The position numbers and the translations under genes are program-made. Below are positions 5,241-16,782 of a stretch of DNA of 64,000 nucleotides, in pieces. The notes under the pieces were generated by a model that was given only the letters and a program-made list of their open reading frames with translations, did no database searches and was not told the origin of the DNA. Each line of letters opens with the position of its first letter. Within the stretch, counting starts at the first letter, position 1. Source of the DNA: Planctomycetaceae bacterium (GTDB lineage Bacteria; Planctomycetota; Phycisphaerae; Tepidisphaerales; Tepidisphaeraceae); the NCBI GenBank assembly GCA_027487775.1, contig JAIYCY010000025.1:459692-523691 (forward strand), read 5' to 3'.

Positions 5241-6734
5241 ATGCCCACCCGCACGTGCGTGTCGTACAAAGTTCTCGTCGGCCTGGAAATCCACGTCCAG
5301 CTCGCCACGCGTTCCAAGATGTTCACTTCCGCCGCCAATGCCAGCGGATCGCTGAAGCCCAACGCCGTCCCTCCGGAGCCTAATTCCGCGGTCGATCCGG
5401 TCATTCTTGGCCTTCCGGGCGTGCTTCCGGTCATCAACAGACGCGCCGTCGAATTCTCCATCATGGTCGGCCTTGCAATGGATTGTCAGATTGCTCGGTT
5501 CACGAAATGGGATCGCAAAAGCTACTACTACCCCGACCTGCCCAAAAACTACCAGATCAGCCAGTACGATCTGCCACTCTGCGGCCCGGGAACTTTCAAC
5601 ATTCCTTCTGATGACGGCACGATGACCCCCGTCCGCATCCGCCGCGCTCACCTCGAAGAAGACGCGGGCAAACTCCTTCACGAAGCCCCCGGCGGGTATC
5701 ACATCGATCACTCGATTGTCGATCTCAATCGCGCCGGAACCCCCCTGCTCGAAATCGTGACCGAACCCGATCTGCATTCCCCCAAACAAGTCGCAACCTT
5801 TGCGCGTGAACTGCAAAAGCTCGTCCAGTTCCTCGGCGTATCCGAAGGTCAGATGCAGCTCGGACACATGCGCTTCGAGCCCAACATCAACGTTCACATC
5901 ACCGACGCCGAAGGCAACGTCCACAAGACAGCCATCACCGAAATCAAAAACCTCAACAGCTTTGACGTGCTCGAGAAGGCGACCGCCTACGAAATCCAAC
6001 GGCAAATCAAGACGTGGCAAGAAACCGGCTCGCTCGGCCGCAAGTCGACGTATGGCTGGGACGACGCGACACAATCGACCTTCCATCAACGCGACAAGGA
6101 AGAAGCCCACGACTATCGCTACTTCCCCGACCCCGATCTCGTCCCGGTCACGGTCGATGACGCATGGCTGACCAGCCTCAAATCGACGATCGGCGAACTC
6201 CCCCAGGCCCGCCGCGATCGATACACCCAATCGCTGGGCCTTTCCGACAAAGATGCCCAGCTCATTCTCGCAGACAAAGGCACCAGCGACCTCTTCGACT
6301 CTGCCGTCCAATCCGGCGTCGACGCCAAGCGTGCGACGAGCCTCCTCGAAGCGCTCCGCGAAGTCGCCTTCGAGAAGCAGTCCGCCCTCGTCGATCTGAA
6401 CCTCACCGGCACGTTCATCGCCGACGTCGCAAAACTCATCGACGCAGGAAAAATCGCAGCGAGCAAGGAGACGACCAAAAAGCTCTTCAGCGCCGCATCA
6501 AACAACGCTCTAGCCGAGCAACTCGCCGAACAACTTGGCCTGATCCAGTCCACCGACACCGGCGCGATCGACGCCGCCATCGACGCCATGATCGCGACAA
6601 ACCCCAAACCCCTCGCCGACTACCGCGCGGGCAAGGCCTCTGCGCTTGGCGCTCTTGTCGGCATGGTCATGAAGCAAGGCAAAGGCCTCAACGCCAAAAT
6701 CGTGCAAGAGCGTCTGAAAGAAAAGCTCGGCTGA
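5241..6734 (+). CDS. gatB: Asp-tRNA(Asn)/Glu-tRNA(Gln) amidotransferase subunit B
   Basis: 497 residues from the ATG at 5241. GatB is the kinase/tRNA-binding subunit of GatCAB, which converts Glu-tRNA(Gln) and/or Asp-tRNA(Asn) to the amide form. Seen here are YKVLVGLEIHVQL at the N-terminus, DRKSYYYPDLPKNYQISQYD, the LNRAGTPLLEIVTEPD block, the MRFEPNINVH block and EIKNLNSF, then a C-terminal GatB/YqeY helical domain ending KIVQERLKEKLG. The length is normal for the family. The frame continues upstream through nrdR on the other strand, but the conserved N-terminus sets the start. gatA and gatC are not in this window. Confidence 0.96.
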   Translation: MPTRTCVSYKVLVGLEIHVQLATRSKMFTSAANASGSLKPNAVPPEPNSAVDPVILGLPGVLPVINRRAVEFSIMVGLAMDCQIARFTKWDRKSYYYPDLPKNYQISQYDLPLCGPGTFNIPSDDGTMTPVRIRRAHLEEDAGKLLHEAPGGYHIDHSIVDLNRAGTPLLEIVTEPDLHSPKQVATFARELQKLVQFLGVSEGQMQLGHMRFEPNINVHITDAEGNVHKTAITEIKNLNSFDVLEKATAYEIQRQIKTWQETGSLGRKSTYGWDDATQSTFHQRDKEEAHDYRYFPDPDLVPVTVDDAWLTSLKSTIGELPQARRDRYTQSLGLSDKDAQLILADKGTSDLFDSAVQSGVDAKRATSLLEALREVAFEKQSALVDLNLTGTFIADVAKLIDAGKIAASKETTKKLFSAASNNALAEQLAEQLGLIQSTDTGAIDAAIDAMIATNPKPLADYRAGKASALGALVGMVMKQGKGLNAKIVQERLKEKLG

Positions 6735-6795
6735 AGACATCGCCCTGCGATTCCCCGACGTCACGAATCCCATAGGCGGCTTGTGAAGCACCGAC

Positions 6796-6924
6796 TCACC
6801 GCCGAGGCGCACGAGGCCCCGCGAAGGACACGCAGAATTCTCAACAGAGATTCCCTTCGCCTTTCTCGGCAACCCCACCGAGACCTCTGTTAGACCTGTG
6901 AGACCTCGTGCGCCTCTGCGGTGA
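6796..6924. repeat. Long inverted repeat with 21-base arms
   Basis: The left arm 6796-6816 (TCACCGCCGAGGCGCACGAG plus one G) pairs with the right arm 6904-6924, differing at one base. Inner bases also pair in part (AACAGAG with CTCTGTT). The arm sequence resembles the 'caccgcagaggcgcagagg' type element that I recall as dispersed in many bacterial genomes. It may be a mobile non-coding repeat or a large structured RNA. Confidence 0.75.
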
Positions 6925-7069
6925 AAGCACATTTCAGAGACAGCAAGCGCCCGTCCCGACCGAATTCCCTTGCCGCGCGCCGCCCCAATTTCATCCTGCC
7001 ACAAAAAATCCGCCCCTATTCCAATAAAATCTTTACTTTTCTCTTGAAAACAGAATCACGCACGTTACA

Positions 7070-7127
7070 GTTCCCGGGTCAGGGAACCGCCGCAAGGCAG
7101 TTTGGGAAATCAGGGAGATATGTCCCA
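7070..7127 (+). promoter_or_regulatory. Pair of hairpins in possible leader region
   Basis: GTTCCC, loop GGGTCA, GGGAAC (7070-7087) is followed by CGCCGCAAGGCAG and a second stem TGGGA/TCCCA (7103-7107 with 7123-7127). An AT-rich patch with TTGAAA lies just upstream. This could be a structured leader or a processed RNA. It does not match a riboswitch class I can name. Confidence 0.3.
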
Positions 7128-7509
7128 CGTCTAAGACACTTCTGAATCGCGAGACGACCGCTCGTCACTATTCACCTAGTTTGAATCGAAGGTCATCCGA
7201 CTGACGTTCCGCGCTTTAGGGGTCACGCAAAATAGCAAAATCTTTTGGGCCCTCGCGTATGCGTTCGCGCCCGGAAGTGTGTTGAAGAATCTGGCGTGGA
7301 CATCACGCCAACACCGCAGAAGGCGCGTGCCGTCTGCGATGGTCGATCCGGGCGTGTGCTCGGCGACCGTCTGGAATGTCGAATCCCACACGGGTGTTTC
7401 GATTTACGCTTTCGCGCACATCCGCCGCTGAGCTGAATTGAATGACCGCACTCTCGTGGGACGGAATCGACTGGAGAGATTCGTCTGTTTTATGTCAGGG
7501 AGAAACCCA

Positions 7510-8598
7510 ATGAAGTCCGTCACCCGCCAAAGCGCGCTTGCGCTCATCGCCGTCGCTGCATCCGCCACCCTCGCCCCCGCCGCGACGTTTACTTTTCCGA
7601 GCTTTGCCCCCTCGCCGACCACGTTTTCCAACACCAACATTCGCACATTCAATCTGACCACCCTCGGCACGGCTCCGACGAGCAGTTGGGTCGCAGCGAC
7701 AATCACCGTCGCTTGGAACGGTGGAAGTGTGAGCGGATCGTCAGCCCAATGGTCAAACGAAGCCCGCGCTGGGCTCAGTAGTGCCGGACGCGGTGGCACG
7801 GTCGCCTCTCCCACCGGCGGAGGAACAAACTACGCGTCGGTCGCGGCTCCCACATCCGGTGCGTTAAGCAGTGCGGCCCCCACGACGTTGACCTGGACGT
7901 ACTCGCTGATCAATCCTTACCCGGGCGGCTCCGCTCCGCTGTTCCTCGACTTCGGTCAAACATTCTTCAGCACCACCACACCGACGTCCAACGCAAATTG
8001 GAACAATGTCAGCGTACAACTATCCGACGTTGCGCTGCCACCTCTGGCTCCGTCGGGTCCAATCACCGACATCGGCGTTCTTGGCAACCCGAGCAGCAAC
8101 TACCTCACCCCCGACTACACGGTGAGCGTCGCGACGACATCCACCAATCGCGTCCACTGGATCAAGTTCACTCTCGCCACGCCGCTGCTCGGATCGCTCG
8201 ATCAGTTCCTCGACATCGACACAGGCGCTTCGCCCGATTCGGTCATCGGCCTTTACCGCGCCTTCTCACCCACATCGGCAGTCTCGCAAGGGAGTGACGA
8301 CGACGACGGTCCGGGTTCAGGCAGTGCACTGAGTTACGGCGATGCTACACCTGCACGCGGACCGATCGGCGATGGTGTTGCCGGAAACGCACGAGACGGC
8401 TCCTCGCTCGGCGCCGGTACGTATTACCTCGGCGTCGGCGGTTGGTCATCGGGATTTAGCTTCGGCTCGAATTACAACGCCACCAACCTCAGTAGCGTCG
8501 GCTCGACCTATACGGTCAACTTCCGCACCAACATCCCCGAGCCCGCCACGCTTTCGCTCCTCGCGGCTGCGGGGCTCATCGCACTGCGTCGCCGCTGA
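7510..8598 (+). CDS. PEP-CTERM sorting domain protein, secreted
   Basis: 362 residues from the ATG at 7510, which has AGGGAG about 9 bases upstream and is followed directly by a signal peptide (ALALIAVAASATLAPAA). The body is Ser/Thr/Gly-rich and beta-strand-like. It includes a part with FLDIDTGASPDSVIGLY and the acidic stretch GSDDDDGPGSGSA, as seen in bacterial pre-peptidase-like domains. The C-terminus is a PEP-CTERM tag: PEPATLSLL, a hydrophobic helix, then ALRRR. Such tags are handled by exosortase (EpsH/XrtA-type) systems, which anchor or release proteins at the outer surface. The ligand or function of the body is unknown. A terminator hairpin follows. Confidence 0.88.
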   Translation: MKSVTRQSALALIAVAASATLAPAATFTFPSFAPSPTTFSNTNIRTFNLTTLGTAPTSSWVAATITVAWNGGSVSGSSAQWSNEARAGLSSAGRGGTVASPTGGGTNYASVAAPTSGALSSAAPTTLTWTYSLINPYPGGSAPLFLDFGQTFFSTTTPTSNANWNNVSVQLSDVALPPLAPSGPITDIGVLGNPSSNYLTPDYTVSVATTSTNRVHWIKFTLATPLLGSLDQFLDIDTGASPDSVIGLYRAFSPTSAVSQGSDDDDGPGSGSALSYGDATPARGPIGDGVAGNARDGSSLGAGTYYLGVGGWSSGFSFGSNYNATNLSSVGSTYTVNFRTNIPEPATLSLLAAAGLIALRRR

Positions 8599-8636
8599 TC
8601 CGGCCTCGATCTTGTTGAGCCACATCAAATGCAAGG

Positions 8637-8672
8637 CAGCCCCGTCATTGAACGGGGCTGTCTTGCTTTCTG
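8637..8672 (+). terminator. Intrinsic terminator of the PEP-CTERM gene
   Basis: CAGCCCCGT, loop CATTGA, ACGGGGCTG is a perfect 9-bp stem followed by TCTTGCTTTC. It lies about 40 bases after the stop codon. Confidence 0.75.
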
Positions 8673-8822
8673 ATTCAACCTCTCGCAACGCCTCGCGCGG
8701 TGATCAGATTCTTCATTTCGACCGCGACGGCATGTCTTTTTAGAACTTCTACGCCAGACATTTCTCGAATGGGTGTCGGTCACACTCACTTGATCGCGGC
8801 GACGTTCAGGGGCTTGAAGCGT

Positions 8823-9695
8823 TTACGCACCAAACGCGGACGCAGCCTGCATCAACTCGCCGATGCGTGGCCTCACTTGATCAAGCACAGTGGTCGTCAC
8901 GCCACTGCCCGACAGCAGAGCCGGATCCACGGATTCCATGTTCCCGGTCAGCCAAAAGCCGACCTTTTCCGCACAACACAATTGATCCGCTGCCGCCACG
9001 ATCGCGACAAGCGTCCGCGATCCATCCGCCAGCAACTGCGGTTCGTGGTGAAAGCCCGCCGCCTGTTGACAGCTCCTCGGGAACTGCCACTTCTGTGCAA
9101 GCGCCAATCCCAACTGCTGATGATCCACGCCGATCACATCCCGCTCGATTTCACAGAACGTCCGCACGCCTTGCTTGGATTCGATGCACACCTGCGTCAA
9201 CTTCTCGGGCCACACCTGCAGCGAGACCAGCAATCCGACATCGTGCACCATCCCAGCAAGGAAAGCCTCATCCGCCAGCGGCAGTTTCAGTTGTCGCGCG
9301 ATCTCGCGGCTTACCACCGCCACACCGATGCAATGCGTCCACAAGTCCTTCGCCGTAAAACCTTCACACAACTTCACCCCACGAAACAACTGTCCCATGC
9401 TCGCCCCCACCGCGATATTTTTCACCGCATTGAGTCCCAGCATCACGATCGCCCGCTCGACACTGCTCACTTGTCCAGGCAATCCGTAAAACGAACTGTT
9501 CACCACCTTCAGCACGCGCGTCACCAGCGCCGGATCGTGGCTGACGATCTTGTTGAGCTGCTGCGCGTTGGAGCGCGGATCCTCCACCGTCCGGATGATC
9601 TGCTGCGTCACCTCGGGCAACGTCGCGATGCTGGAAATCGAATTGATCGCGCTGGCGATGAGTTTCTGTGGATCGGCTGCTGCTGCTGTGGTCAT
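8823..9695 (-). CDS. HDOD domain protein (signal output)
   Basis: 290 residues from the ATG at 9695, with AGGAAG upstream. Matches the HDOD family, relatives of HD phosphohydrolases that lack their catalytic residues and act in signalling, often with chemotaxis, motility or c-di-GMP. Visible hallmarks: LPEVTQQIIRTVEDPRSNAQQL, then SHDPALVTRVLKVVNSSFYG, VSSVERAIVMLGLNAVKNIA, and the HD-like FLAGMVHDVGLLV. It lies 180 bases downstream of the nonulosonate operon on the same strand, so co-transcription is possible but not shown. A motility link is consistent with the flagellin glycosylation genes upstream. Confidence 0.88.
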   Translation of the reverse strand: MTTAAAADPQKLIASAINSISSIATLPEVTQQIIRTVEDPRSNAQQLNKIVSHDPALVTRVLKVVNSSFYGLPGQVSSVERAIVMLGLNAVKNIAVGASMGQLFRGVKLCEGFTAKDLWTHCIGVAVVSREIARQLKLPLADEAFLAGMVHDVGLLVSLQVWPEKLTQVCIESKQGVRTFCEIERDVIGVDHQQLGLALAQKWQFPRSCQQAAGFHHEPQLLADGSRTLVAIVAAADQLCCAEKVGFWLTGNMESVDPALLSGSGVTTTVLDQVRPRIGELMQAASAFGA

Positions 9696-9875
9696 GGCGA
9701 CTCGCTTCCTCGTCTTGCTTACGACCAAGTCTTCACGCACCCCGCGCAAAGGCTCGCCGCGCTGACATCTTCATCGAATCAAATCCCACACGACTTAACT
9801 GAGGCGATGCACCAATTTCTCGCCCCATGTTTCAGTCACCCCGAAGCCATGATTCCCGTACCACCCTCAACCCGC

Positions 9876-11093
9876 TTAATATCGGATCAACTTCCACCGC
9901 AGCCGGTCCAGATTCGCCCGCCGGATCGCATTCACAATCCGTTCCCCCGCTCGCCCCGCGCCCCATGGATTCTTCATCCGATAAACCCCATCCTCACCCG
10001 CTTGCCCTACAGCGCGCATCATCGCCCGAGCGATCGATTCTGCCTTGAATTGAGCGCGCACCACATTTTCACCGCGCAACCTGCCCCGCTGCCGATCACC
10101 CACATCCACCACCGGCACGCCAAAACTTCCCGACTCGATCACGCCCGCACTGCTGTTGCCCACCACCACCCGAGCCTGTCGCATCCGCGATAGAAACGCT
10201 CCGCGCTCCAGATGCCGATGCACAAAGATTCGCATTTCATCGACTCCGATCACACCTCCGTCGATCCATGCCGAGTTCTCCGGATGCCTCCCATTCTCCA
10301 GCGTGTCCCAAACACGAGCGATCCCGGCCGATCCCGGATCAGTGTTCGGCCAGACAATGTCTAGTCGCTTCGGCCCCGAGTCCTTCATGCGCAAGACCGC
10401 TCGCCGAACACCTTCAAGCAATACCCACGCGTGCTGGAACTCCGTCTCTTCGTCCGCCGACTCCGGATGAAGAACCATGAGCACTGCATCGCGACGCTTC
10501 TCCCCGGGATCCGCTTGAGCAGCGCGCCGCGCATCTTCTTCGATCCCGTCCAAGCCGGGCGCGCCCGTGACCACGATCCGCCACTTCTCCTCACCCAGTC
10601 GATGCACGCGTCTCGCCGCGTCTTGGCTCGCAACGAGGTGCAGATGGCTCAGCTTGGTGATCGCATGCCGCAGTGCATCGTCCGACTGTCCCTGCGCGCG
10701 ATCTCCGCCGTGCACATGGGCGACCACGATCCCCGCCACCTGTGCCGCACCCGCGGCCGCGAAAATCTCAGGCCTGTCCCCCACCACCATCACCACGTCA
10801 GGTCTCAGTTTTCCGTACAACTCCGCGAGCTTCTCCATCCACATCCCCGCCCGGCGCGCTTCTTCGATGGCATCACCACTCGCGCTGACCGGTCCCGGCA
10901 ATCGCTCCACCGCAAACTTGTCCGCGTCGATCTCGTCGACCGTCGAGCCGCGCGACGCCACCCAATGCATCCCGATCACCGCCACCGTCAATGCCAAATG
11001 CCTGTCATTGGCGATCAGCCCGAGCGTCCGCCGCATCAGGCCGTACTCCGCCCGAGTCCCCGTCACGAACAACACGCGCCGCCGCTCGCTCAC
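9876..11093 (-). CDS. neuC: UDP-N-acetylglucosamine 2-epimerase, hydrolysing (NeuC-like)
   Basis: 405 residues from a GTG at 11093 that overlaps the neuB stop codon by four bases (GTGA), with GGAGG just upstream; an ORF start further up adds only a basic extension. NeuC-type enzymes turn UDP-GlcNAc (or UDP-diacetamido-bacillosamine in the legionaminic route) into the free mannosamine-type sugar plus UDP. Seen: RVLFVTGTRAEYGLM at the N-terminus, PDVVMVVGDRPEIFAAA, AHVHGGDRAQGQSDDALRHAITKLSHLH, and VVGNSSAGVIESGSFGVPVVDVGDRQRGR near the C-terminus. These are the family's nucleotide- and sugar-binding motifs. It is the last gene of the overlapping operon. Which sugar is used cannot be read from the sequence. 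Confidence 0.9.
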   Translation of the reverse strand: MSERRRVLFVTGTRAEYGLMRRTLGLIANDRHLALTVAVIGMHWVASRGSTVDEIDADKFAVERLPGPVSASGDAIEEARRAGMWMEKLAELYGKLRPDVVMVVGDRPEIFAAAGAAQVAGIVVAHVHGGDRAQGQSDDALRHAITKLSHLHLVASQDAARRVHRLGEEKWRIVVTGAPGLDGIEEDARRAAQADPGEKRRDAVLMVLHPESADEETEFQHAWVLLEGVRRAVLRMKDSGPKRLDIVWPNTDPGSAGIARVWDTLENGRHPENSAWIDGGVIGVDEMRIFVHRHLERGAFLSRMRQARVVVGNSSAGVIESGSFGVPVVDVGDRQRGRLRGENVVRAQFKAESIARAMMRAVGQAGEDGVYRMKNPWGAGRAGERIVNAIRRANLDRLRWKLIRY

Positions 11094-12232
11094 GCTTCCT
11101 CCCCGGCTCCGATGGATGTTCGCGTCCATCCCTCCATCATCTCAGTTCTCAATCGCGCGCCGACTTCCGCATCACAAGCCATGCGCCTGCCCACCACGCG
11201 ATCGACATGCTCCGCCCCGATCCCTTCGCCGGGACGACGCGTCGATAGATCACCCATTTCGATCACATCCCCCGCCCGCTTCGCCCGCACCAGCACCAAG
11301 GACTGCCGACTGAGCCTCCGCACATCCCTTTCGATCTCCAGCACGTCCCGATCATTCGCTCGCCCCGCCCAAGCGAGCGGCCCACGCAACGTCTCGGCGC
11401 GCCGGATCATTCGCACATAGTTGGCAAATTGCCCCTCATCAAAACTCGCCGCATGGTCCGGCCCCGGCGCTAATCGATCCCACGTCAGATGCTTCTCGAT
11501 CACACACGCTCCGCCCATCACCGCCATCGCGCCGGCCAGTTCGTCATCCGTGTGATCGCTATATCCCACCGGACACGCACATAGCCGTGCGATCTCGCTC
11601 ATCCAGGCCAGTCTCGCTTCCCGCGCCGGCGTCGGATAGCTGCTCACACAATGCAGCATCACAGCATCGACTCCCCACTCGCAAAGCCATCGCCCCGTCC
11701 GCGCGATCTCGTCCGCCGTCGCTGCACCTGTCGATATCCACATTGGTTTGCCCAGCGACGCACATCGCAACAGAAGCAATCGATTCACCACATCGGGCGA
11801 CGCAATCTTGATCGCCGCCAATTCCAACCGCTCGATCCGCTCCACGTCCTCCGGAGAAAATGGCGTCGCGACCGCCATCATCCCGCGTGCCCGAATCGCT
11901 TCCACCAATCGCTCCACCTCTGCATCAGCTAGCTCATACCGCAAAAGCATCGCATGCTGGTCGGTCGCACCGATCGCCTCCCGCTGATAGCTCGCCGTCT
12001 CCGCGCCTCGCTCCACCAGACGATCGGCCCGAAACACCTGCAACTTCACCGCATCCGCACCCGCACGATATGCCATCTCCACAAGCTGTAAACCGCGCCC
12101 GACATCCCCGTCATGATTCACGCCAATCTCCGCCACCACGATCACGCGATCATGCGACGAACTCACCTCGCTCACGCCGATCTCTTCTCGCGTCGCGCCA
12201 ATCGGCTCATTCATGCCGCACACCTCACTCAT
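11090..12232 (-). CDS. neuB: Nonulosonic acid synthase (NeuB family)
   Basis: 380 residues; the ATG overlaps the neuA stop (ATGA). NeuB condenses a mannosamine-type sugar with phosphoenolpyruvate to give N-acetylneuraminate, legionaminate or a related nine-carbon acid. The N-terminal TIM barrel shows VVAEIGVNHDGD, ADAVKLQVF, VATPFSPEDVERIERL, AIKIASPD, MWISTGAAT, MLHCVSSYPTP, and VGYSDHTDD followed by ACVIEKHLTWDR. The C-terminal antifreeze-like SAF domain (residues ~310-370) has SLVLVRAKRAGDVI and STRRPGEGI. The length is slightly above normal because of the N-terminal extension. Sialate, legionaminate and pseudaminate synthases cannot be separated by eye; the neighbouring NeuC argues against pseudaminate. 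Confidence 0.92.
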   Translation of the reverse strand: MSEVCGMNEPIGATREEIGVSEVSSSHDRVIVVAEIGVNHDGDVGRGLQLVEMAYRAGADAVKLQVFRADRLVERGAETASYQREAIGATDQHAMLLRYELADAEVERLVEAIRARGMMAVATPFSPEDVERIERLELAAIKIASPDVVNRLLLLRCASLGKPMWISTGAATADEIARTGRWLCEWGVDAVMLHCVSSYPTPAREARLAWMSEIARLCACPVGYSDHTDDELAGAMAVMGGACVIEKHLTWDRLAPGPDHAASFDEGQFANYVRMIRRAETLRGPLAWAGRANDRDVLEIERDVRRLSRQSLVLVRAKRAGDVIEMGDLSTRRPGEGIGAEHVDRVVGRRMACDAEVGARLRTEMMEGWTRTSIGAGEEA

Positions 12233-12951
12233 GCCGCACCCCGCCGCGCTCGCTGCTCACCCAAAATCGCCTCCGCGAGCAGCAAATCACGCAGATGGTC
12301 CACCTCGACCACCTCGCCCATCTCGGTTTTAACCCCGCGACGATCCACCCCGAAAAATGCATGCGGATTCCCCCGATCCGCTCGACCCATCTCCATCGCC
12401 GCACGTCCGCTCACCACCACCCCGCCGTCATGCAGGTAGAGCGGCTCCAAATCCTGCCGCCGATGCACCCCGCCTGTCGATCCCTCCACTCGACCCGCCT
12501 GATCCAAACGGCTCATCCACTGCGGATGCCACTTGCCCACCGGGCAGAATGACCTCACGCTGTCACAAGCCGTCTCCATCCACATTCGCACCGCCCGATC
12601 AATCAGACCGGCGGGCCTCAATGGCACATTGCCATAGATGGTCACCACCGCATCAAACCGATCGCCGCCACGACTTTCCAGTTCATCCATCGCATGCAGC
12701 AGGACATCCTGCACGCTTGCCTCGCCGTGCGCAAGATGCGCGGGTCGGTCCACATGTTCGATCCCCTGACTCCGAGCAAGGCGTCCGCACGTCGGACAAT
12801 CCGTGCTGATCACGCGATGTGTCAACAGCTCCGCCTCACACGCATGCCCGATCGAATGCGCCACCACTGGTCTGCCCGCAAGGTTCAACAAATGCTTGCC
12901 CGGCAGCCCCACACTGCCCGCCCGCGCGAGAATCACTCCAAGAATCTTCAT
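12229..12951 (-). CDS. neuA: CMP-nonulosonate cytidylyltransferase (NeuA-like)
   Basis: 240 residues, ATG with AGGAG about 9 bases upstream. This enzyme class activates the nine-carbon acid with CTP to the CMP-sugar used by transferases. The signature ILARAGSVGLPGKHLLNLAGRPVVAHSI covers the CTP-binding loop, where the family usually has ARxGSKGxPxKN; here Ser-Val replaces Ser-Lys. Also seen are VISTDCPT, VTIYGNVPLRPAGLIDRAV, and SVRSFCPVGKWHPQWM. The Lys-to-Val change in the loop deserves note but may be a family variant. Coupled by ATGA overlap to neuB. Product identity (CMP-Neu5Ac, CMP-Leg or other) is not determined. Confidence 0.87.
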   Translation of the reverse strand: MKILGVILARAGSVGLPGKHLLNLAGRPVVAHSIGHACEAELLTHRVISTDCPTCGRLARSQGIEHVDRPAHLAHGEASVQDVLLHAMDELESRGGDRFDAVVTIYGNVPLRPAGLIDRAVRMWMETACDSVRSFCPVGKWHPQWMSRLDQAGRVEGSTGGVHRRQDLEPLYLHDGGVVVSGRAAMEMGRADRGNPHAFFGVDRRGVKTEMGEVVEVDHLRDLLLAEAILGEQRARRGAA

Positions 12952-12994: not shown

Positions 12995-14692
12995 TTAAGG
13001 TCTAAACCACTCTCGGCAATCGCCACACACGCCACTAAAAAGCCCAGCCCGCTGCGCCTCAAGTGTCCCGCGGGTTTTGCCCCACACCTCCGCCAATGTC
13101 CCTTCAGCGAGTCGGGTCACGCCGGCGGCATCGCGCTCGCAGATCGCCCATCGCCCATCCGACAAGAGGGTCATGCGTTCACGCAATCGAACGCACGCCC
13201 GCCGCACCGACGGACTCATATCCACCACGCCCACATCTTCGATCAAACCGCCAAAATCGCTCGGCCCCACGATCGCCGCTGATCCGACCGCCGTCAGCCA
13301 TTGGTCGTACCACGCCTCCATCTCATGCTGATTCACCCGACACTTCACAAACATCGGCACCACCAAAGGCAACTGCGATCCGCCTCGCCCCGCCAGCATC
13401 GCCCTTACCCCGCCCAGCATCTCATTCATGCGATCCGCACCCATCACCTCGGCATATGTCGCCCGACCCACCGCCGGGATGTGAATCGCAATCACATCCA
13501 CGCCACACTGTGAAAGCCTCCGGCCGAGCGCTTCGGTCTTCGCGGCGTCCGGCTCCATCGAAAGCAAATCCGTTTCCACAGCCACGCTCGCGGTGCCTCT
13601 GGTCGCGTGATGGATTGCCTTGATGACACGCTCAAACTCCGGATGCAGAATCGGATCCCCCACGCCCGCCAGCGTCACACGCAAGTCGTCGATCGCATCG
13701 AGTCGTCCCAGTCGCTCGATCAATGTCTCGATCGACAGGTCCGCGCGGCTGATGTTGGGATGCTGATCGACTGCGGGCCTGAAGATCGCGCGGGTTGCCC
13801 GGCGCGTCGTCAGTTCGATCGTCAATGCTCGGGGCGCGTGTGTGCAGCGCGCCACTGCATCCATTCGCCCGATGGCCTGCTCCATCGAGATCAGGGGCAA
13901 ATCCGTTGCCGGGATCGCGGTCTCGATCGCGCGGATCGATCGCGTGCTGTCGGCCAGAAGGTTCTGCGTTGATCGCGTGATCTGTGGCAAAAGTCGCATG
14001 CACGCCGGCGAGCCAATCGGATCGACGCCTGGGCGTTCGGGTCGATAGCTCAGAAGTAGACCGGGATGCGATCGACGCGGCGCGAGTTGCTCGATGAGCG
14101 TTCGCCTGAGCATTGGTGCAGCCCCACCAGGCGGAGCCTGCGTAAAGAGCAGTGGCATCGTCTCACGATCGGCGGCATGCTTGATGAGCCTTGTCAGCAC
14201 ATCCGCATCCAACAGAACCGACGCTGGATCCACCCAGATCAAATCTGACAATTGAAAGCGATCGCACACAGTCAGACCCGCCGGCGCATCAAAGCCGCGA
14301 TCGAAGCCGGACGCACCCATCGGCCCGCCGCGCCATCCGTCGCTCCATCGCCGCGCGATCGTGACCGAATCCATCTGCGGCATCGCCCGGCGTTCTCCGA
14401 CACTCACGACGTCCGCCTCGGTCGCGCTCGCCACCGACTTTGCCCGCTCGACTTGATCATCAAAACAAACGATCACCACACGCTCAATCCCCTCCACGCG
14501 CGCCGCCCGTGCGAGCGTCCAGCTCAGCACCGATCGACCATGCAGCAGCCTTGCGAAGTTTGCAGCGTCTGACTTCTCGTGCAGGAGCGACACCACAACC
14601 CCCACGCGCGCCGCCGTCGGCAACGGTCCCAGCGACGCCAACCGACCCGCAGGCTGGTTTGATGAGTCGCTCATGTGGGATGGATCGTTCAT
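12995..14692 (-). CDS. SpsF-like nucleotidyltransferase fused to cysteine-less radical-SAM/SPASM domain
   Basis: 565 residues, start ATG overlapping the upstream gene's stop (ATGA). Residues ~28-280 resemble a cytidylyltransferase/SpsF-like fold (VGVVVSLLHEK, LLHGRSVLSWTLARA, and VDPASVLLDADVLTRLI). Residues ~287-500 follow the radical-SAM barrel pattern of glycan-locus SPASM proteins: PRALTIELTTRR, then LAGVGDPILHPEFERVIKAI, VAVETDLLS, and VPMFVKCRVN. The iron-sulfur motif expected after ELTT (CxxxCxxC) is absent: residues 298-306 read RATRAIFRP. The C-terminal SPASM-like end keeps cysteines at ~518, 556 and 559 (WAICERD ... GVCGDC). It therefore probably cannot do SAM radical chemistry. Its role in the glycan operon is unknown. 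A short start at 14674 is also possible. Confidence 0.7.
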   Translation of the reverse strand: MNDPSHMSDSSNQPAGRLASLGPLPTAARVGVVVSLLHEKSDAANFARLLHGRSVLSWTLARAARVEGIERVVIVCFDDQVERAKSVASATEADVVSVGERRAMPQMDSVTIARRWSDGWRGGPMGASGFDRGFDAPAGLTVCDRFQLSDLIWVDPASVLLDADVLTRLIKHAADRETMPLLFTQAPPGGAAPMLRRTLIEQLAPRRSHPGLLLSYRPERPGVDPIGSPACMRLLPQITRSTQNLLADSTRSIRAIETAIPATDLPLISMEQAIGRMDAVARCTHAPRALTIELTTRRATRAIFRPAVDQHPNISRADLSIETLIERLGRLDAIDDLRVTLAGVGDPILHPEFERVIKAIHHATRGTASVAVETDLLSMEPDAAKTEALGRRLSQCGVDVIAIHIPAVGRATYAEVMGADRMNEMLGGVRAMLAGRGGSQLPLVVPMFVKCRVNQHEMEAWYDQWLTAVGSAAIVGPSDFGGLIEDVGVVDMSPSVRRACVRLRERMTLLSDGRWAICERDAAGVTRLAEGTLAEVWGKTRGTLEAQRAGLFSGVCGDCREWFRP

Positions 14693-16782
14693 GCCGCACC
14701 TCCCGCATTGTCCGCAGGTCCCTGTGGCTCGCCTCGTTCATCGATCCGAGATGCGTGACTCGCCCCCGTCCGATTCGTGCGATCGGGAAACTCTGCCAGT
14801 CGCGTCATCGCCTCGTCCATCAGCACTGCAAATTGCTCCGCCGCCGACTGAATGGCCCGGACGTTTTCGATATCCCGCAGTGTCTGACGTCGCTGCCGCT
14901 CGATCTCATCAATGTCCGCCGCGCCGATTGCCAGATCCGCGCGGAAGCGATTCATTTCGCTCTCGAGCGTCAATTGCGTGATCAATTCGTAGGTCGCGCC
15001 CAGATCGTTCATCCGCGCCCGCAGCGCATCGAGCTGCGCGATCGTGCGATTGACTTTCGCCTGATCGGCCTGCTGTTCGATGATCGCCTCGAGCAGAGGC
15101 AATGTTTGTCGGCTGATCTCCGCGATCGCCTCTGCCTCGCTGCGACGCGCTTCGATCGACCGCATCGCAGCATCGATCCGCTGCATCGAGAGCCCCGGAT
15201 GACCCGCCGCTGGCGATCGCAACGGCTGTTGACAGAAGCTCGCCAGCGCCTCGGCGAGCGACATCACTTCTGTTCCGGCCTTCCTGGCTCCGCCCTCGGT
15301 GGCATCGATGATCCTCGCCGGGCTCTGAGCGAAATCGCGTTCAAACTGTCTCAGATACGCAAGGAGCCTCTGCTCGGTGTACATGGGCCTGCCATGAATG
15401 TCTGGAATGCGTGAGAGGATGTTCCGATCCCGCGCGATCTGCTCCCATTGCTTCTGCTCAAGTGTACAAAACGGGCCCAACTCAGGCCCCCAGACGTCGT
15501 CGTAACTTGTTCCCGGCGCGTAGGCGAGCCCATCGACAAATCCGAGATCCTGCCCGACAAAAATGATCGGATCGCAGGCCATATGCTCGGCCAGATAGAA
15601 CGCCAGATGCGCCACCGTCGCGCCGCTCCGCAGGGCGGGCCGCCTGACGTTGAGTTCGCGCAGCATCCCTTCTGCCAGCGTCGCGCCAAGCATGGTCACG
15701 GGTCCCGGGTGGGCATCGGGAATCACGGCATTCGCCTTGGCATCGACGATGAGTTCCGTCGAAAGATCACGTGGTAATCGCTCGTAGAATCGACGCGAAA
15801 CATCCGAGTAGTCGAGGCTCGTAACGAAGTCGGGCACCACGCCAATATCCAAGAGCGGCTGCAACGTCGTTTGCACTGCGATGATCACACATCGTCCGAC
15901 AGCCTCGCGAATCAGATGTCGATTCTTCCGCAGGCTCGGCCCTGCGCTCACGATCAGCGCAGGCTGCTGCGCGAAGCGCTTTGCCAATCGGTCGGCGGTC
16001 GGCGTGGTCAGATACCAGGGCAGATTGCGGATCACGTTTTGCGCCGTCTGCCTGCCGTTGATTAAGAGGGTATTCGTAGCCGTGCGTGCGTGCGTGAGCA
16101 CGTCATTGACCATGGAACGGCATTCTGCAAACCACCTCGCATGCGCCCGCACGCTCGGCGGATGCTCCACTTCGATCAGTCCGCCGGTGATTGCAGGGGC
16201 GATCGGCGTGAACAAATTGATCCACTCCGGGCGATCGATATGGGTCAAAAACCGAATTCGCCCGCGCGACAAGGCGTCCGACAACGTACTCGAACCAAGG
16301 GCCGCCAGGATCGTGTCGAGACTCGGCTCGAACACGAACACCGTCACACCTTCTGGCACGCGCTCGGCAAGTCGCTTCACGTGATGACCCACGCCAAGCC
16401 CATACACAAAGACGGCTGTCGCGTCCTGTGGCGCGAAGTTGGCCACCAAACGGTCTGCCTCTTCGAGCGGCTTGTACAACGAGTGCAGCCGGACGCTTCG
16501 GCCCTGTTCGTCGATCACGCTGAGTGTCACGGATCCGTCCCGTGCGGGCTCGGGAGGCGTTCGCAGACCCACCTGATCCAGTCGGCGCTCGATTTTTCGC
16601 GCGAGCGCCGGATCACGCGACCAGAGCCAGGCAAGTCCCTCCACGAGCGGATCGTTCAACAATGCATCGGTCGGTCGCTCTGTTTCTGCGCCCATGAAAG
16701 AGCTCAGCTCAGGCGACTGAACATTCGCCGAGCGATCGGGCATGGGCCCGCGAGGAGGTTGGGTCGATTCGGGTCCGATCAC
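14689..16782 (-). CDS. Maf/DUF115 family protein, probable flagellin nonulosonate transferase
   Basis: Up to 697 residues from a GTG at 16782; in-frame ATGs at 16743 and 16698 are alternatives, and no strong ribosome binding site decides. DUF115 (MptE-like) is the core of motility accessory factor (Maf) proteins, which attach pseudaminic or legionaminic acid to flagellin. Seen: VFVYGLGVGHHVKRLAERVP and VFVFEPSLDTILAAL (residues ~125-160), then the core ALIVSAGPSLRKNRHLI, CVIIAVQTTLQPLLDIGVVPDFV and TSLDYSD. Next come PIIFVGQDLGFVDGLAYA and a helical C-terminus with coiled-coil character. It is the first gene of the operon, overlapping the next gene by four bases. Transferase activity is inferred from family and neighbours. 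Confidence 0.85.
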   Translation of the reverse strand: MIGPESTQPPRGPMPDRSANVQSPELSSFMGAETERPTDALLNDPLVEGLAWLWSRDPALARKIERRLDQVGLRTPPEPARDGSVTLSVIDEQGRSVRLHSLYKPLEEADRLVANFAPQDATAVFVYGLGVGHHVKRLAERVPEGVTVFVFEPSLDTILAALGSSTLSDALSRGRIRFLTHIDRPEWINLFTPIAPAITGGLIEVEHPPSVRAHARWFAECRSMVNDVLTHARTATNTLLINGRQTAQNVIRNLPWYLTTPTADRLAKRFAQQPALIVSAGPSLRKNRHLIREAVGRCVIIAVQTTLQPLLDIGVVPDFVTSLDYSDVSRRFYERLPRDLSTELIVDAKANAVIPDAHPGPVTMLGATLAEGMLRELNVRRPALRSGATVAHLAFYLAEHMACDPIIFVGQDLGFVDGLAYAPGTSYDDVWGPELGPFCTLEQKQWEQIARDRNILSRIPDIHGRPMYTEQRLLAYLRQFERDFAQSPARIIDATEGGARKAGTEVMSLAEALASFCQQPLRSPAAGHPGLSMQRIDAAMRSIEARRSEAEAIAEISRQTLPLLEAIIEQQADQAKVNRTIAQLDALRARMNDLGATYELITQLTLESEMNRFRADLAIGAADIDEIERQRRQTLRDIENVRAIQSAAEQFAVLMDEAMTRLAEFPDRTNRTGASHASRIDERGEPQGPADNAGGAA

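Follow-up and report, generated by a model that had tools for sequence, protein, structure and literature searches.

The closest described relatives are the spiro-SPASM proteins (NCBIfam TIGR04321), an uncharacterised spirochaete family with a two-domain architecture, four invariant C-terminal cysteine residues and co-occurrence with Maf proteins in Spirochaetota. A search of the available literature returned no paper on spiro-SPASM, none on radical SAM together with nonulosonic acid and none on SpsF in Treponema. Three further systems bear on this architecture. BtrN (PDB 4m7t) is a radical-SAM/twitch dehydrogenase that has a core cluster and oxidises an amino-cyclitol; its single auxiliary [4Fe-4S] cluster, bound by four cysteine residues, persists in the core variant C16A/C20A/C23A (PMC9012708). 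SpsF, NeuA and PseF are CMP-nonulosonate synthases (CTP_transf_3), and SpsF from B. subtilis, a putative cytidylyltransferase, is required for the transfer of legionaminic acid to the spore surface (PMC7439481). The Maf flagellin nonulosonate transferases form a separate protein family; a Clostridium Maf glycosylates flagellin in E. coli cells accumulating CMP-Neu5Ac, and the available part of that report describes no spiro-SPASM partner (PMC11339370).

We analysed a gene coding for a 565-residue protein in the window, that is, the whole stretch of 64,000 nucleotides under study. The protein shares with spiro-SPASM both the two-domain architecture and the four C-terminal cysteine residues. Unlike BtrN, it has no core cluster motif and carries an extra N-terminal domain, and unlike SpsF, NeuA and PseF it lacks the ARxxSTRLPGK motif and the second acidic metal position. 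Maf appears as its partner by adjacency, fusion and co-occurrence. We put at roughly 0.55 the probability that the protein consists of two retired enzyme domains and serves Maf, the flagellin nonulosonic-acid transferase, as a partner that does no radical chemistry.

Results and discussion

The gene and its operon

The open reading frame was confirmed: it starts with ATG and runs from 14692 to 12995 on the minus strand, and several stops interrupt the plus-strand translation of 12995..14692. The gene is the second of five in an apparent operon, all on the minus strand, in the order Maf-type glycosyltransferase, 565-residue protein, neuA/pseF-like, neuB-like and neuC. Its start overlaps the stop of the upstream Maf-like gene in the tetranucleotide ATGA, a gap of 43 bp separates its own stop from the neuA-like gene, and its GC content by codon position (0.67/0.52/0.70) is like that of the operon neighbours. 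The original prediction had described a glycan (nonulosonate) operon, an overlap with the upstream neighbour and a codon use similar to that of the neighbours, all of which these data bear out. Elsewhere in the window, the open reading frame 7438-8598 on the plus strand ends with PEPATLSLLAAAGLIALRRR, a PEP-CTERM-like sorting tail.

Table 1 Position of the 565-residue protein gene, its predicted features and its operon neighbours in the window.
Feature	Position	Strand	Basis
Whole gene, 565 aa	12995..14692	-	ORF; TIGR04321 match; family alignments; purifying selection in homologue pairs
Predicted SpsF/NeuA-fold N-terminal domain without ARxxSTRLPGK, residues 28-280	13853..14611	-	hhalign; PDB 6oew; motif comparison
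RxWxxxWRGG, residues 114-123	14324..14353	-	Near-invariant in Planctomycetota; gap against SpsF and spirochaete members
Barrel of radical-SAM type, residues 287-470 (approx.)	13283..13834	-	PF04055, BtrN and spiro-SPASM profiles; domain end approximate
Core CxxxCxxC site, residues 298-305, now R298-A302-R305	13778..13801	-	Gap-free alignment; census
G345-D346-P347, putative equivalent of SAM-binding GGE(P)	13652..13660	-	Conservation in Planctomycetota
Twitch/SPASM-like domain, residues 500-559 (C500, C518, C556, C559)	13016..13195	-	Alignments; BtrN match
Maf-type flagellin glycosyltransferase, upstream	14689..16782	-	MptE-like PF01973; Maf N-terminal PF20157
neuA/pseF-like CMP-nonulosonate synthase	12229..12951	-	Profile matches
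neuB-like nonulosonate synthase	11090..12232	-	Profile matches
neuC, UDP-GlcNAc 2-epimerase	9876..11129	-	TIGR03568, above cut-off

Domain architecture and family

With the 565-residue protein alone, the Pfam search gave no match above cut-off, PF04055 (Radical_SAM) reaching 14.7 bits for a cut-off of 29.5 bits, and the PDB search gave no match. The AlphaFold2 model built from the lone sequence was too poor for use (pLDDT 42, pTM 0.32). In a family alignment of 40 members, PF04055 was matched by 36 of them and SPASM (PF13186) by 35. The family profile found BtrN as best structure match in the PDB (E=5.8e-16), covering both the core barrel and the auxiliary domain, and PqqE was also matched. 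Residues 287-565 are thereby assigned to a radical-SAM barrel followed by a twitch/SPASM domain, with BtrN as the nearest solved structure. Profile comparison with the SpsF/NeuA alignment by hhalign gave E=2.8e-9 over 226 columns (residues 26-280), the cytidylyltransferase 6oew was matched in the PDB by the family profile (E=5e-6), and the N-terminal half, along its whole length, is predicted to have the fold of the CMP-nonulosonate synthases. Both the radical-SAM/SPASM-like C-terminal half and the SpsF-like domain fused to it, as first proposed, are retained, the assignments for the two halves resting on sequence profiles.

Among the NCBIfam profiles, TIGR04321 matched residues 245-563 with E=2.7e-38 and 131.9 bits (cut-off 250), and none of 392 Planctomycetota genomes had a TIGR04321 match above the 250-bit cut-off. 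Compared by hhalign, the Planctomycetota and spiro-SPASM profiles aligned at full length (100%, E=4.6e-57, 483 columns). A 16S pattern reached two spirochaete genomes, whose bona fide TIGR04321 proteins scored 504 and 461 bits, and 130 of the 149 Spirochaetota genomes sampled had a protein above cut-off. We place the 565-residue protein in the known but uncharacterised spiro-SPASM family, as a sub-cut-off and cluster-less branch of it. The architecture that NCBI names spiro-SPASM would have arisen when a domain with the cytidylyltransferase fold was joined to a radical-SAM/twitch enzyme resembling BtrN. In the tree, the Planctomycetota and Spirochaetota proteins formed two clades apart from the canonical radical-SAM/SPASM proteins (98/94, 100/99, 99/96), the Planctomycetota members being a clade of their own (98/94). 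These members differ from the spirochaete ones by the RxWxxxWRGG insertion, a candidate contact surface, and by lying beside Maf or fused to it.

The homologue survey took in 100 related genomes besides the one that the window comes from, and of these 101 a match to the protein was found in 52, the source genome included, which shows that the gene is not a chance open reading frame. The search of viral contigs with the protein gave no match, and tblastn against plasmids gave only partial matches, none of them over more than 48% of the query, in the radical-SAM/SPASM part.

Loss of the core cysteine residues

We took the CxxxCxxC motif, or a variant of it ligating the core [4Fe-4S] cluster, as the mark of an active radical-SAM enzyme. 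Aligned with intact radical-SAM/SPASM proteins, the segment E-x-x-x-x-C-x-x-x-C-x-x-C-P corresponds without any gap to E293-L-T-T-R-R298-A-T-R-A302-I-F-R305-P306, so that the three core cysteine residues are replaced in exact register by R298, A302 and R305 (RxxxAxxR). The absence of the core motif, as originally claimed, is confirmed by this alignment, but the two-residue deletion that had been thought probable is not, since the replacement in exact register leaves no room for it. By homology, the protein belongs to the radical-SAM sequence superfamily; by the cysteine test, it falls outside the radical-SAM enzymes. Without the core cluster, SAM would not be cleaved to the 5'-deoxyadenosyl radical.

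This state is not the peculiarity of one gene that it had been taken for. The core triad was intact in none of the 62 Planctomycetota rows, and a search of these relatives for CxxxCxxC, proposed with the original prediction, found it in none. The replacing residues were heterogeneous (R/P/S, D/A/R, W/K/R and others). Core cysteine residues moved but intact nearby were also sought, and none was seen in the Planctomycetota rows. In contrast, a minority of the spirochaete proteins retain CxxxCxxC: among 60 rows the triad was complete in 16, partial in 6 and absent in 38. Core loss is common to all the Planctomycetota homologues examined and to most of the spirochaete ones. Parsimony gave at least 7 changes of core state on the careful tree and 8 on a larger, quick tree, most of which would be losses because regain of the triad is unlikely; proteins with lost and intact cores lie side by side (L201 and L218 against L198; L192 and L214 against L195). 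Two spirochaete cores are odd, L148 with a CX11CX2C-like spacing and L220 with a DxxxCxxC remnant, and might be intermediates of core loss.

The predicted SAM-binding elements are largely kept, with G345 in 98% and D/E346 in 97% of the Planctomycetota proteins and P347 and T374 also mostly kept. Together with the spirochaete relatives having an intact CxxxCxxC, these GDP/GEP and T374 elements could suggest an enzyme still working by radical-SAM chemistry, with a core cluster that has different ligands or comes from a partner. However, a substitute triad at the core site was seen in none of the Planctomycetota members, the replacing residues vary from one protein to another and the loop is wholly missing in some fused copies, and we regard such an enzyme as highly improbable.

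Auxiliary cysteine residues and the N-terminal domain

The four cysteine residues binding the auxiliary cluster in BtrN all have counterparts in the 565-residue protein: C500, C518, C556 and C559. Cysteine residues had been noted at the C-terminus before, and they are indeed present, but their count was understated, as C500 completes a four-cysteine site. All four are kept in 48/62 Planctomycetota and 58/60 spirochaete rows, and the core triad and the four auxiliary cysteine residues were both found in 13/13 rows of canonical radical-SAM/SPASM proteins. Of the 14 Planctomycetota rows lacking the full set, some are truncated by a contig end or a stop; others, among them L048, L051, L054 and L056-L058, run to their own stop codon and have genuinely lost some or all of these residues. 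In the Maf-fused proteins L056-L058 the core loop is missing too. The BtrN variant C16A/C20A/C23A is a laboratory analogue of the natural state of the 565-residue protein, core-less with the auxiliary site kept. The auxiliary [4Fe-4S], or another metal bound by the four cysteine residues, would be mainly structural.

In the N-terminal domain, the family members of neither phylum have the CTP motif ARxxSTRLPGK that is conserved among the SpsF/NeuA neighbours. The SpsF region RLTIDxxxDY becomes RlxaDsxR, with DxxxD read as D..R and arginine at the second acidic position; loss of the CTP chemistry is likely rather than certain, because the alignment is gappy there. Neither domain of the protein seems to have kept its catalytic motifs.

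The protein might nevertheless be a pathway enzyme acting without radicals, which modifies or transfers the CMP-nonulosonate before Maf or together with it, either through the nucleotidyltransferase/GT-A-like fold of its N-terminal half or with the auxiliary cluster serving as Lewis acid. The nucleotidyltransferase fold is complete, D248 and an SpsF-like xxxLxDP loop are found in many members, the auxiliary cysteine residues are widely kept and the operon is shared with neuABC. Against this, ARxxSTRLPGK is gone, the second SpsF acidic position is an arginine, a normal neuA lies next door and the auxiliary cysteine residues are also lost in some Maf-fused members; we consider a non-radical enzyme unlikely.

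Linkage with Maf and flagellin

Scored over the 101 genomes, the gene and Maf (PF01973) occurred together in 49, the gene alone in 3, Maf alone in 1 and neither in 48 (Fisher p=6e-24, the relatedness of the genomes being ignored), that is, 49 of the 50 genomes bearing Maf also carry the gene. The one Maf-only genome (G066) has in fact a Maf fusion of 1205 aa. Two of the gene-only genomes (G022 and G025) have a completeness of about 60-65%, and in both the gene lies at the end of a contig. In the third (G020, 86% complete), neither flagellin nor Maf was detected and the copy (L113/L030) has an internal TGA, likely by decay after the loss of flagella. Among 60 loci with flanks, Maf lies directly upstream in 45 and is fused in 5 (together 50/60), and neuA is downstream in 30. 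Maf fusions were found in six genomes (G028, G037, G054, G066, G098 and G270) from at least three taxonomic families, the fusions L054, L056, L057, L058, L131 and L224 each reading through as a single frame of about 1120-1470 codons. The adjacency and fusion in Planctomycetota suggest that the protein is probably a helper of Maf rather than a radical enzyme, and the loss of the auxiliary cysteine residues in some fused copies is as expected if Fe-S chemistry is not needed.

Flagellin was detected in 51 of the 52 genomes bearing the gene. This, and the fusion to the Maf C-terminus, whose domain is said in the available part of the same report to resemble flagellin export chaperones weakly (PMC11339370), would fit a chaperone-like protein recognising flagellin for Maf instead of handling the sugar donor. 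Yet the two domains have folds of the sugar-nucleotide type and the linkage with neuA, downstream in half of the loci, is also common, which makes such a role distinctly unlikely.

The reading that we favour as the best supported is the one guessed at first, that of a binding or scaffold protein linked with nonulosonate transfer, on the basis of adjacency, fusion and co-occurrence with Maf. The protein would most likely bind Maf, its substrates or both, these substrates being the CMP-nonulosonate made by NeuABC or flagellin, and would hold or position them. On the same scaffold, spirochaete proteins with an intact CxxxCxxC may still perform the ancestral radical step, an oxidation like that of BtrN or some other tailoring of the sugar. 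Extended to both phyla, the proposal becomes that of a dedicated Maf accessory subunit, which combines the fold of a retired CMP-nonulosonate synthase with a radical-SAM/twitch enzyme whose core cluster was repeatedly lost and whose auxiliary one was kept; this we advance tentatively, at slightly less than even odds.

Several points weigh against a partner of Maf. The widely conserved auxiliary cysteine residues may have a redox or catalytic role, and through the remaining parts of the SAM motif the protein may bind and use SAM or another nucleotide. In the spirochaete loci examined, the gene was not found beside Maf. As the Clostridium Maf works without a partner described in the available part of that report, Maf in general seems not to need one; a partner would belong to particular lineages and perhaps serve the specificity for donor or acceptor.

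Selection

Six close pairs of cluster-less homologues gave dN/dS of 0.07-0.22, broadly alike in both halves of the protein, with dS near saturation in one of the six; the single pair with intact cores gave 0.22. These values come from homologue pairs, the window gene itself having no close enough relative. That the gene is selected and not decaying, as first suggested, is in line with this constraint. Loss of catalytic residues in both domains, and the G020 copy with its internal stop in a genome where flagellin and Maf were not found, could be taken as signs of a one-time radical-SAM enzyme in decay; but the frame is open in dozens of genomes, dN/dS is low, the codons are like those of the neighbours and retention is tied to Maf, so that decay is hardly credible. 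A pseudogene was rejected on the conservation, the dN/dS of the homologue pairs and the Maf linkage.

Significance and spirochaete loci

Automatic annotation would label many proteins of this family radical-SAM/SPASM enzymes, and the cysteine residues of the core cluster are found in no Planctomycetota copy examined and in less than half of the spirochaete ones. Its members form a natural series, from core intact, through core lost with the auxiliary site kept, to both lost in some Maf-fused forms, in which the purpose of an auxiliary cluster without radical chemistry can be studied. A partnership with Maf would also bring a previously unassigned protein into the flagellin glycosylation of Planctomycetota and Spirochaetota. 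If it is true, binding subunits for protein glycosylation have been made from an Fe-S radical enzyme on several occasions, in two phyla.

MptE-like/Maf genes were present in 145 of the 149 Spirochaetota genomes, and the remaining four also have no spiro-SPASM. At several spirochaete loci with an intact core, the neighbour is an SpsF-type cytidylyltransferase gene. A SurA/PpiC-type peptidyl-prolyl isomerase gene stands on one side in L195, L196 and L208, with the SpsF-type cytidylyltransferase on the opposite side in L196 and L208. At locus L123 (G127, 5316-10422), Maf-like genes lie on both flanks of the gene, with scores of 480 and 472 bits.
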